NCBI GenBank assembly: GCA_024693225.1
Contig: JAILLI010000057.1
Coordinates: 1-40,172 of the forward strand
Direction of reading: 5' to 3'
DNA from: Lachnospiraceae bacterium
Lineage (GTDB): Bacteria; Bacillota; Clostridia; Lachnospirales; Lachnospiraceae
Length of the DNA stretch: 40,172 bases
In this document: positions 14,207 to 19,110 of the stretch, in pieces
How positions within the stretch are numbered: the first letter of the stretch is position 1
Layout: every line of letters starts with the position of its first letter
Notes under the pieces: model-generated
The model's database searches: none
What the model saw: only the letters and a program-made list of their open reading frames with translations
What the model was told of the DNA's origin: nothing
Program-made: the position numbers and the translations under genes

Positions 14207-14228
14207 AGTTGAGTGCTAATTTTTTCTT
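14192..14228 (+). terminator. Possible intrinsic terminator formed by the CIRCE dyad
   Basis: attagcactcaa-tgaag-ttgagtgctaat stem (12 bp) followed directly by a T tract (tttttctt). Confidence 0.55.
14193..14219. promoter_or_regulatory. CIRCE operator (HrcA binding site)
   Basis: ttagcactc-aatgaagtt-gagtgctaa: exact match to the CIRCE consensus TTAGCACTC-N9-GAGTGCTAA. Confidence 0.96.
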
Positions 14229-14255
14229 GACTTTCATTTCATGTGGCGTTATCAT
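14227..14255 (+). promoter_or_regulatory. Sigma-A-type promoter for htpG
   Basis: TTGACT - 17 nt - TATCAT, 7 bp downstream of CIRCE. Confidence 0.7.
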
Positions 14256-14285
14256 CATTTTCGGACAGAACTCTCAAGATGTTAT

Positions 14286-14508
14286 GGCTCAGTGGAAGCA
14301 ATATGTATTTGCGACCTTGGAGCGAACCTAGAGCATCTTATGTTGTTGGATAAAGCAGCAAATCCGCGACCGGATGGAGCGGATAGGCCGCCACAAAAAG
14401 GCATGGATGCCGGTTGGCGGCCGGTTGCGGACATAGCGAGGTGTATAACAACATTAGATGCTCTTGGTAAGCGGAAACGGAGCAAATATATGCTGCTTCC
14501 AACGAGCC
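14286..14508 (+). ncRNA. Long structured 5' leader RNA of htpG (class unknown)
   Basis: Arms in one register: 14286-14312/14482-14508, 14326-14347/14447-14468 (agagcatcttatgttgtt/aacaacattagatgctct, 17/18), 14363-14373/14421-14431 (tccgcgaccgg/ccggttgcgga, one G-U). Several differences between arms are G-U wobbles. Confidence 0.65.
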
Positions 14509-14542
14509 TTGAATACAGTATTTAAGAAAAGAGGTAGTAAAA

Positions 14543-16678
14543 ATGGCTAAAAAAGGCAGTTTAACGATCAACAGCGAGAATATTTTCCCCATAATCAAGA
14601 AGTGGATGTATTCCGATCATGATATCTTTGCCCGTGAGCTTGTAAGTAACGGCTGTGATGCCATAACCAAGCTCAGGAAGCTGGATGTCATTGGTCAGTA
14701 TTCCATCCCGGACGGAAAGGACATGGAGATCAGGATCACGGTCGATCCCGAGAACAAGAAGGTGATGTTCTCTGATACGGGTCTTGGAATGGATGCCGAT
14801 GAGGTCGAGGAATACATCACCCAGATAGCTTTCTCGGGAGCTACGGCCTTCCTTGAAAAGTACAAGGACAAGACCAATGACGACCAGATCATAGGTCATT
14901 TCGGCCTGGGCTTTTATTCGTCGTTCATGGTAGCGGATGAAGTTCACATCGATACGCTTTCATACAAGGAAGGCGCCAAGGCGGTTCACTGGGAGTGTGA
15001 CGGCGGCACTGAATACAGCATGGAAGACGGAGACCGTACCGAGGTCGGAACAACGATCACGCTTTTCCTTAATGAGGATTCACTTGAGTTCTGCAATGAG
15101 TACAGGATGAGGGAAGTCCTGAAGAAATACTGCTCCTTCATGCCTACTCCCATCTTCCTTGTAAAGAGCGGAGCCGAAACCCAGTATGACAACATACCTG
15201 CAGACCAGGTGACCGATAAGGATACGGTCATCGAGAAGTATACCGAGGAAGCAAAGTACGAGGAGCAGGAGAAGGACGGCAAGAAGGAAAAGGTTGAGAT
15301 CAGCCCCGCAAGAGAGATGGCCAAGATAGTCCGCCGCGAGGTTCCAATCAATGATACCCATCCCCTGTGGGCAAAGCATCCCAGCGACTGCACCAAAGAA
15401 GAGTACCTTGACTTTTACCGCAAGGTATTCATGGATTACAAGGAGCCCCTCTTCTGGATCCATCTGAACATGGATTATCCCTTCAACCTGAAGGGAATAC
15501 TCTACTTCCCCAAGATAAACATGGAGTACGAATCCATAGAGGGCGTGATCAAGCTTTACAATAACCAGGTCTTCATAGCCGATAATATCAAAGAGGTGAT
15601 CCCCGAGTTCCTGATGCTCCTTAAGGGCGTTATCGACTGCCCGGATCTTCCTCTTAACGTATCAAGATCCGCTCTTCAGAACGACGGCTTTGTCAACAAG
15701 ATCAGCGACTATATCTCCAAGAAGGTTGCCGACAAGCTGGCCGGTATGTGTAAGACCGAGAAGGAAGATTACGAGAAATACTGGGACGATATCAGTCCCT
15801 TCATCAAGTACGGTTGCCTCAAGGACGATAAGTTCTGCGAGAAGATGACCGATTACATCCTCTTCAAGGATATAGACGGCAAGTACATGACATTGCCCGA
15901 GTGCCTCGAACTTCCTGAAAAGAAGAAGGAAGAGGCCACAGATGAGAACGGAGAGACTGTCGAGGCTGAGGTCGTTGATGAAGGAGCTGCGGCAGAAGCT
16001 GAAGCCGCTGATACCGTAAAGGATGAGGCGGCGGAAGATGGTGAAGAAAAGGATAAGGTCAGGAAGACCGTATACTATGTCACCGATGTCCAGCAGCAGA
16101 GCCAGTACATCAACATGTTCCGTGAAGAGGGACTTGATGCGGTGGTCCTTACCCACAACATTGACCAGCCCTTCATCAACCAGCTCGAGTCCAAGATGGA
16201 AGATGTCAGGTTCATGAGGATAGATGCCGACATCACCGATTCCTCAAAGGAAGAGGCGAGTGAGGATGACAAGAAGAAGACGGAGAAGGATGAGAAGACC
16301 CTTACCAAGCTCTTCCATAAGGCTCTGTCAAACGATAAGCTCACGGTCAAACTTGAAGCCCTGAAGAACGAGAGCATTTCTTCGGTGCTCACTGTTTCCG
16401 AACAGACGCGCCGCATGCAGGATATGATGAAGATGTATTCCATGGGCGGCGGCATGGATATGGGCATGTTCGGCTCCGAAGGAGAAACGCTGGTCCTCAA
16501 CAGCAGGAACGAACTGGTAAAGTATCTCCTTGAGGCCAAGAAGGGTGCCGATGCCGAGATGTTCGCCTGCCAGCTCTACGATCTTGCGGTCCTTTCAAAC
16601 CGGCCGCTGTCGGCAGATGCCATGACAAAGTTCGTATCCCGCAGCAACGAGATAATGCTGAAGCTTTCAGGGAAATAA
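14543..16678 (+). CDS. htpG: Hsp90-family chaperone HtpG
   Basis: 711 aa; IFARELVSNGCDAITKLR, DTGLGMDADEV, GHFGLGFYSSFMV, and other Hsp90 motifs. Confidence 0.97.
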   Translation: MAKKGSLTINSENIFPIIKKWMYSDHDIFARELVSNGCDAITKLRKLDVIGQYSIPDGKDMEIRITVDPENKKVMFSDTGLGMDADEVEEYITQIAFSGATAFLEKYKDKTNDDQIIGHFGLGFYSSFMVADEVHIDTLSYKEGAKAVHWECDGGTEYSMEDGDRTEVGTTITLFLNEDSLEFCNEYRMREVLKKYCSFMPTPIFLVKSGAETQYDNIPADQVTDKDTVIEKYTEEAKYEEQEKDGKKEKVEISPAREMAKIVRREVPINDTHPLWAKHPSDCTKEEYLDFYRKVFMDYKEPLFWIHLNMDYPFNLKGILYFPKINMEYESIEGVIKLYNNQVFIADNIKEVIPEFLMLLKGVIDCPDLPLNVSRSALQNDGFVNKISDYISKKVADKLAGMCKTEKEDYEKYWDDISPFIKYGCLKDDKFCEKMTDYILFKDIDGKYMTLPECLELPEKKKEEATDENGETVEAEVVDEGAAAEAEAADTVKDEAAEDGEEKDKVRKTVYYVTDVQQQSQYINMFREEGLDAVVLTHNIDQPFINQLESKMEDVRFMRIDADITDSSKEEASEDDKKKTEKDEKTLTKLFHKALSNDKLTVKLEALKNESISSVLTVSEQTRRMQDMMKMYSMGGGMDMGMFGSEGETLVLNSRNELVKYLLEAKKGADAEMFACQLYDLAVLSNRPLSADAMTKFVSRSNEIMLKLSGK

Positions 16679-16790: not shown

Positions 16791-16844
16791 GTTAACATGC
16801 CGGGAGATAGTTTATAATATTACCATATGGTTTCAGGGATAGAT

Positions 16845-17969
16845 ATGACATCTGTATATATTGCGGATTACGTCGGTGTCCTTCTGCTGACGCTGATCTT
16901 GTGCGCCCGCGGATGGGAGCTTCCGGGCCGCAGGGACGAAAGCCGTATACTGCTGATCCTCGTGATCGCAACACTGATCAACTGCCTGTTCGATCCGGTC
17001 ATATTTGCCGTCGACGGGAGGCCCGGTCCCTTTGCCCGCTTTGTGGTCATATTCGGGAATTCCCTCCTTTTCATCTATAACCTGGTGGTGGGGACCGGTA
17101 TGCTGGTCCTGATCATCAAGCATATCAGGAGTCATATATCAAGATTGCAGTATGCCATCGTGTGGGGGCTCTCTGCCCTTGAAGTCATCCTCATCATAGC
17201 CAATCTTTTTACCCCCATAGTCTTTTCGGTAGACGAAAACAATGTCTACAGCAGAGGACCTCTTTATTTTGTATATCTGTTTGTGGCCTTTTATCTCATG
17301 CTGTACAGCATGTTCTTATATGTAACGGCAGGAAAGAGACACGGATCGCTGAGGTATTTTCCCGTGTGGGAGTTTGTGCTGAGCATAGTGCTCGGTGTCG
17401 TTATACAGACGGCCTTTTACGGAGTCTCACTTCAGCCCGTGAGTTTTGCGGTGGCCTTTTGCAGCATAGTCATCTGTCTGCAGAAGGAATATCTCTATAT
17501 AGACAAGCTGACCGGTGTGTATAACAGATACGAGTTTGACAAGATCATCCGCTATTACGTGAAACGGAAAAAGAGCAGATTTGCCGCCATCATGATCGAC
17601 ATGAACAATTTCAAGGCCATAAATGACGAACATTCCCATGAGGAGGGCGATGAGGCCTTAAGAGAAATGGCCCGGATACTGACCGCCGTTGCTGGTGATG
17701 ACGGAAACGTCATAAGGTTTGCCGGTGACGAGTTCGTTCTGATAATAGATGACGAGGGCGAGGATGTCATAAGCAGGAGCTGTGCAAAGGTAAATGCTGC
17801 CATCGAAGCTTATAATGAGTCATCCGGAAAGCCTTATAAACTTTCCGCTTCCATGGGCGGCGATGTGTTTGACATAGAGGATGCCGCCGATGTCACAGGC
17901 CGTATCGACAGGCAGATGTATGAGGATAAAGTGGAATATTACAGGACCCATGACAGAAGAAGCAGATAG
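16845..17969 (+). CDS. Membrane diguanylate cyclase (GGDEF-family, AGDEF variant)
   Basis: Multiple TM helices; DKLTGVYNRYEFDKI ... VIRFAGDEFVLII. TATAAT at 16813-16818 lies too close to the ATG at 16827, so ATG 16845 (preceded by aggga) is preferred. Confidence 0.85.
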   Translation: MTSVYIADYVGVLLLTLILCARGWELPGRRDESRILLILVIATLINCLFDPVIFAVDGRPGPFARFVVIFGNSLLFIYNLVVGTGMLVLIIKHIRSHISRLQYAIVWGLSALEVILIIANLFTPIVFSVDENNVYSRGPLYFVYLFVAFYLMLYSMFLYVTAGKRHGSLRYFPVWEFVLSIVLGVVIQTAFYGVSLQPVSFAVAFCSIVICLQKEYLYIDKLTGVYNRYEFDKIIRYYVKRKKSRFAAIMIDMNNFKAINDEHSHEEGDEALREMARILTAVAGDDGNVIRFAGDEFVLIIDDEGEDVISRSCAKVNAAIEAYNESSGKPYKLSASMGGDVFDIEDAADVTGRIDRQMYEDKVEYYRTHDRRSR

Positions 17970-18117
17970 TTGCATTAATAGCGTGTAAAATACAATATAT
18001 AGTGTTTTCGTATAAGAAAATGTGATAAAATAACAATGTATGTGCATTTTACCGCATTTTTTATCTGGAACGGCGTAAACAGGGTATTTCATATCATATT
18101 CGACCGTGAGGTGTCCG

Positions 18118-19110
18118 ATGGAGACAAGTATCTTATATCTGCAGACAAATGATAGGATCGCCGAGAACCTTAAGGGGAGGTTCAATGACGAAGGGATAGA
18201 GTTCATACATGCAAGCTCTGCCGCCCAGGCCTTTGAACTTTTGGGAGAGCGGGAATTCTATCTGGTCCTTACCGACGGCTTTATACCGGACATGAAGGTC
18301 CACGAATTCGCAAGGAAATGCTCTGTCGAATATCCGGATGTGGTGCTCGATGTGTGCACGGATCTTACGGATGAAAAGTATATACCCAAGATAGTCAATG
18401 AGTACAGTGTGCGGAAGGTATTCCTGCCTCCGTGGAACATAGAGGATATAGTCGAGGGGGTCAAGGATTCCATTGACGAGGCCCATATCCATCGTGACAT
18501 CTTAAGGAGGATCAGCGATCTTAAAAATGACGAGAAGGTTTTCGAGGATACACTGGACCGGCTGAAGAAGGCCCTGATAAAGCAGCAGTACAGCTACAAC
18601 AAGATCGCACCTTTTTTCAACCGGGTCCTTGATGCCTTTTTGCGCCGCAGGGACATGGGTGAGAACTACAACAGTTTCGTGAGAAGGTCCTGTGACAAGA
18701 TGCTCCGCCTGCAGACGACAGCTTATTTCAAGGTCTCGGACCTTAAGAAGATAATAACCGACAATATGAATGAAGCCCTTAAGAAAAATGAAGGGGTGAG
18801 TGTCGGGGAGGTAAAGAGCTGTCTGTACGGTGAGGTCCCCAGGTCCTCAATGGCGGATCTGACATTTTCTTTGTGGATACTTGCGGCAATAGAAGGGGTA
18901 AAATGCGACAGGGCGACACTGAACGTGGACAGCAGGTATGTGACTTCCAAGAAGTGCGAGTATAAGCTTTCAGTCGCCGGGACCAAAAGATCGGAAGTTC
19001 CGGTCGAAATACAGGTCTATATAGCCAACATCCTTGGCAACATTGTGGACGAGTATCAGAAGTATGACACGTCGGAAGGCTGGACATACGAGCTTCGGGT
19101 CACTTTATAG
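18118..19110 (+). CDS. Receiver-like protein with C-terminal helical/ATPase-like region
   Basis: N-terminal response-regulator-like fold (FYLVLTDGFIPDM...VFLPPWNIEDIVEGV); ATG 18118 preceded by gagg SD. Confidence 0.6.
   Translation: METSILYLQTNDRIAENLKGRFNDEGIEFIHASSAAQAFELLGEREFYLVLTDGFIPDMKVHEFARKCSVEYPDVVLDVCTDLTDEKYIPKIVNEYSVRKVFLPPWNIEDIVEGVKDSIDEAHIHRDILRRISDLKNDEKVFEDTLDRLKKALIKQQYSYNKIAPFFNRVLDAFLRRRDMGENYNSFVRRSCDKMLRLQTTAYFKVSDLKKIITDNMNEALKKNEGVSVGEVKSCLYGEVPRSSMADLTFSLWILAAIEGVKCDRATLNVDSRYVTSKKCEYKLSVAGTKRSEVPVEIQVYIANILGNIVDEYQKYDTSEGWTYELRVTL

Follow-up and report, generated by a model that had tools for sequence, protein, structure and literature searches.

The TwoAYGGAY RNA (Rfam RF01731) was brought to light in 2010 by a screen that Weinberg et al. 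carried out (PMC2864571). Gardner and Eldai noticed that its motif matches the CsrA site and proposed on this basis that the RNA is bound by CsrA (PMC4333381). The helix of the family was lengthened earlier by covariation analysis. Among the palindromic repeats of bacteria, RNase III cleavage has been proposed for NEMIS RNA contained in adjacent mRNAs, and the insertion targets of the Yersinia YPAL elements are regions of dyad symmetry (both reviewed in PMC2229807).

These two bodies of work meet in the window analysed here, a stretch of 40,172 nt from a Lachnospiraceae bacterium in which a rod-like hairpin of 223 nt precedes htpG. This rod is probably a copy of a mobile palindrome, dispersed and non-autonomous, with the TwoAYGGAY RNA as its apex, which sits in the htpG 5' UTR as a passenger and carries CsrA-type sites.

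The rod of the htpG leader

An earlier note, made from the sequence of the window, had described the rod as a candidate for a new class of regulatory RNA. Its arm pairs were found where they had been placed, around a single common centre, and the inverted-repeat search recovered them as one 62-nt repeat (14286-14347 / 14447-14508, 76% complementary). The rod was also borne out by RNAfold on positions 14256-14545: the minimum free energy (MFE) is -113.8 kcal/mol, whereas 200 shuffles averaged -75.3 kcal/mol (sd 4.7, z = -8.2) and none of them was as stable as the native sequence. The class is not new. A cmscan of the window against Rfam returned RF01731 over the full length of the model (1-168/168) with 59.4 bits, the gathering cut-off of this family being 43 bits, and such a hit to a described family, which the note itself had named as an outcome speaking against novelty, rules out a new RNA class. 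No other Rfam class, 6S RNA and raiA included, matched the window even at E <= 1. The third arm pair reported in the note (14363-14373/14421-14431) is present, but it belongs to one of two nearly isoenergetic folds, this pairing and apical hairpin 1 being mutually exclusive. Imposing the two-apical-hairpin fold of the Rfam model on the window copy costs only 0.7 kcal/mol relative to the MFE (-106.8 vs -107.5 kcal/mol). The sequence-conserved unit corresponds to the core, and the outer arms are peculiar to the window copy (Table 1).

Table 1. Features of the htpG leader and of the rod, with positions in the window
Feature	Position	Strand	Basis or remark
CIRCE operator (HrcA site), TTAGCACTC-N9-GAGTGCTAA	14193-14219	+	perfect; inverted repeat
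sigma-A-type htpG promoter, TTGACT-17-TATCAT	14227-14255	+	kept in relatives
left basal arm of rod	14286-14310	+	inverted repeat; sequence copy-specific
conserved TwoAYGGAY core	14311-14483	+	cmscan RF01731; second copy of the genome 90% identical
Rfam-matching part of core	14316-14478		cmscan RF01731
tandem G.A motif flanking core	GCGA 14311-14314 / GAGC 14480-14483		
apical hairpin 1, variant loop with GGAUGGA	14362-14384	+	cmscan alignment, constrained fold
apical hairpin 2	14386-14422	+	cmscan alignment, fold
inner stem-loop of hairpin 2, GGC-AUGGAU-GCC	14400-14411		exact AYGGAY loop, CsrA-site type
right basal arm of rod	14484-14508	+	inverted repeat; sequence copy-specific
htpG (Hsp90) coding sequence	14543-16678	+	PF00183, E 3.1e-59

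The transcriptional setting had been read correctly. A good promoter precedes htpG, no terminator-like site was found in the interval between the two, and the rod begins about 30 nt 3' of the -10 box. A structured element within the likely htpG 5' UTR is real. A perfect CIRCE, absent from the earlier note, lies upstream of this promoter as part of the context, outside the rod element. CIRCE is the operator of HrcA, and its presence places htpG under HrcA. On the 3' side, htpG is followed by a diguanylate cyclase with a GGDEF domain and by a weak match to a response regulator (16827-17969 and 18106-19110). Among named relatives, those with the closest htpG are metagenome assemblies of Lachnospiraceae.

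A dedicated cis-regulator of htpG, either a thermosensor or a protein-binding leader, had been proposed for the rod. Its place between the promoter and the start codon, on the htpG strand, and its very high stability agree with this proposal. However, the ribosome-binding site, in the stretch ahead of the start codon, is unpaired in the MFE structure and lies beyond the rod. An RNA thermometer hiding this site was rejected on these grounds and, because the site is outside the rod, direct control of htpG translation by the rod would not be expected.

Distribution of the rod and of TwoAYGGAY copies

HtpG was found in 36 of the 37 genomes of the genus, from which 30 loci were retrieved for leader comparison. 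In nearly all of these loci CIRCE and the promoter are kept and the leader is shorter. The search for homologues upstream of htpG in related genomes, suggested by the earlier note, located the rod in the window genome only, and RF01731 was without a match at the htpG loci of named relatives that were added to the comparison, 11 in number. Since the operator and the promoter are kept in relatives and the rod stands in the window genome alone among the loci compared, the rod at htpG is a lineage-specific insertion and no conserved regulator of this gene. The rod-free leaders of relatives rule out a conserved htpG thermosensor; taken with the occurrence of TwoAYGGAY copies at unrelated genes and in both orientations, they make a dedicated cis-regulator of any kind very improbable. 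In the nearest relative (G052, HtpG 91% identical), the htpG leader contains a short hairpin, which was considered as an empty site and discarded, its likeness to the window arms not being significant (z = 1.0).

Within the genus, RF01731 occurs in 9 of 37 genomes with 1-5 copies each, and the sampled genomes of the order and of the class contain it in 22/295 and 28/291 cases. Single related genomes harbor 53, 49, 39, 18 and 18 copies. The copies are intergenic, non-coding and dispersed, and they occur in either orientation relative to genes; between co-directional neighbours, the ratio of same to opposite strand is 6:5 for the genus, 4:8 for G241, a genome of a related genus, and 3:1 for G216. 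The type assigned by Rfam to this family is Cis-reg, a leader of the gene on the same strand. The window copy does lie on the strand of its gene but, with family copies in either orientation, this label is not supported by their placement. In G044 (copy d, L023) and G017 (copy c, L013), one and the same gap, as judged from the terminal protein sequences of the flanking genes, holds the element in opposite orientations, which either independent insertion or an inversion through the arms would explain. An antisense copy of G022 (L006) is located upstream of a gene with an hrcA-like start, with a CIRCE in between, apparently by coincidence. A phage or plasmid origin was rejected, as blastn with the window copy gave no match in either the phage or the plasmid collection; viral contigs gave many matches to a permissive DNA pattern, but these are probably mostly due to chance.

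The window genome (G000) possesses a second RF01731 copy, with a prmC-like gene on one side and prfA on the other; in most relatives this gap measures 0-78 nt. The cores of its two copies are about 89% identical and the arms are unrelated. The same gap is occupied by an RF01731 copy in G018 too, and by a core-like sequence, apparently a right-half remnant, in G006. Filled and empty sites are seen among relatives in the prmC-prfA gap and, although no exact empty site was recognised there, at the htpG leaders. Beside the prfA copy of the window genome (L005 ~1380-1500, G000:C38) lies a truncated tandem duplicate consisting of left and right parts, the apex being absent. Other large hairpins are found in the prmC-prfA gaps of G041, G022 and G052 (L294, L298, L300), and no Rfam family was detected in these three. 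The gap appears to be a hotspot at which palindromes insert.

Copy-specific arms and signs of mobility

The earlier note had held that a lack of covariation in homologues would count against its regulatory RNA. In the genus, the arms do pair copy by copy: the ~30 nt beside the core are complementary within each copy, the own partner is the best one in 17/17 cases, and the mean pairing energy is -39.7 kcal/mol for own arms versus -15.6 for swapped arms. Between copies, the left arms are only 29% identical, which is about chance level. The same pairing would be produced by a process correcting DNA palindromes or by insertion into hairpins. Gradual compensatory change does not readily account for cores that are ~89% identical and yet bordered by arms that are unrelated between copies and complementary within each. 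The arms would come either from the insertion site, as reported for YPAL, or from a rapid rewriting of the palindrome by template switching. Part of the base-pair covariation recorded for RF01731 may thus reflect the upkeep of a DNA palindrome and not an RNA function.

Signs of mobility come from G241, in which the palindrome measures ~610 bp and extends ~225 nt per side beyond the core. Both ends of the terminal inverted repeat (TIR), GTTACCATTCACAG, could be placed for 19 copies, and an 8-bp target-site duplication (TSD) with at least 7 of 8 positions matching borders 5 of these 19 copies, versus 1 of 342 swapped pairs. Multi-copy dispersed matches with target-site duplications, by which the earlier note would have recognized a MITE, therefore exist in relatives. 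No TIR or TSD was recognised at the window copy or at the other copies of its genus; in G216, the automatic search gave no exact TSD and two copies are suggestive by eye. The MITE anatomy is shown in G241 and would apply to the window copy by analogy. Of the three guesses first offered for the rod, one had been an inverted-repeat element.

An autonomous element bearing the G241 TIR was also looked for; among the TIR loci seen in seven genomes of one genus, there were short relatives only and no transposase partner. Elements of ~190 bp with the ends GTTACTATTCACAGT, whose stems vary but remain complementary and whose fold is branched, were observed in G154, G254 and G194 (L271, L272, L273, L284, L285). 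In sibling species, ~190-bp elements have the G241 terminal repeat. Their likeness to Rfam Clostridiales-1 (RF01699) is weak, with 29 bits for a cut-off of 48; this family may be mobile too.

The alternative of a static structured RNA gene, inherited vertically and repeatedly lost, has to be weighed at this point. Its outer stem would be under compensatory selection, and the TIR/TSD elements of G241 would have captured a copy of it. The orthologous prfA copies of G000 and G018, the core-like remnant of G006 and the window genus without recognised TIR or TSD are all in line with such a gene. It is nevertheless quite improbable: arms that differ wholly beside nearly identical cores in one genome, and several genera with tens of copies per genome, are not expected from it, and the htpG site would require a loss in all relatives. 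Weighing against the mobile palindrome, the conserved loops and the prfA copy shared with G018 suggest some maintenance by selection as well.

The possible link with CsrA and the comparison with known systems

The GGA triplet is present in at least one apical loop of 73/73 copies and in two loops of 42/73. The MFE structure of the window copy displays one GGA loop. The GGAU of hairpin 2 is invariant in the 15 aligned genus copies, and in G241 the GGA has gone from the second loop in many copies. Genomes with RF01731 carry csrA far more often than those without: 23/28 vs 71/263 in the class sample (p = 1.5e-8), 21/22 vs 155/273 in the order sample (p = 1e-4) and, counted by genus, 19/20 vs 44/161 (p = 4e-9). 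The association is corrected for phylogeny only through the genus counts, which lower the influence of shared ancestry without eliminating it, and csrA itself tends to accompany flagella and larger genomes. No csrA was detected in the 85%-complete window genome; sister species have it in a flagellar operon, beside fliW. The conserved GGA loops and the co-occurrence with csrA fit the published proposal, and point to a putative binding of CsrA. No paper joining MITEs and CsrA for TwoAYGGAY was found in the literature.

A different emphasis would make TwoAYGGAY primarily a CsrA-sequestering sRNA, the Clostridia analogue of CsrB/RsmZ, present in several copies by gene duplication and having htpG as a mere neighbour. 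The published match to the CsrA site (PMC4333381), the GGA loops that are kept while stems vary and the co-occurrence with csrA argue for it. With its 39-53 copies in single genomes, its TIRs and TSDs, its occurrence in either orientation and arms that are unrelated between copies, the family is nonetheless unlike a duplicated sRNA gene, and this explanation is considered unlikely, even if a mobile palindrome and a CsrA-sequestering sRNA can be compatible ideas.

According to the preferred reading of a mobile palindrome, an element with the TwoAYGGAY apex would have entered, in this lineage, the 5' UTR of the CIRCE/HrcA-controlled htpG. Upon htpG transcription, the leader would fold into the rod, a likely substrate for an RNase III-type enzyme, and would present one or two GGA hairpin loops as candidate CsrA sites. 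Any effect on htpG would then be a by-product of the insertion, through mRNA processing or CsrA titration. More tentatively, TwoAYGGAY could be the RNA face of widespread mobile palindromes with CsrA-type sites that persist in csrA-bearing Clostridia, as transposon-borne CsrA decoys or CsrA-dependent transposons; wherever such an element lies, its arms would have been exchanged or remade into perfect inverted repeats. For an RNA that has been an orphan since 2010, a mobile and orientation-free palindrome alters the annotation of its matches. The csrA co-occurrence makes the CsrA-binding proposal directly testable, with the possibility of a transposon plugging into a global regulatory network.

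Compared with the TwoAYGGAY RNA as described, the window copy has the full-length match and, in a fold 0.7 kcal/mol above the MFE, the apical two-hairpin layout. The loop of hairpin 2 is an exact AUGGAU; the loop of hairpin 1 differs, being a variant with GGAU, and the rod exceeds the model by ~25 bp. The family resembles the sRNAs of the CsrB/RsmY type by its GGA hairpin loops, two of them in many copies, its multiple copies and its association with csrA. It differs from them by having only 1-2 putative sites per molecule, by its dispersal as inverted repeats and by the lack of a demonstrated promoter of its own. The likeness to NEMIS/Correia, ERIC and YPAL is one of anatomy, without demonstrated sequence relationship: all are non-coding, intergenic and multi-copy, with long stem-loop transcripts and, for the present family in G241, target duplications (PMC2229807). 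The element described here is nevertheless larger (223 nt in the window, ~610 bp in G241), is bordered in G241 by an 8-bp TSD instead of TA ends, and combines copy-specific arms with a conserved apical RNA presenting GGA loops.
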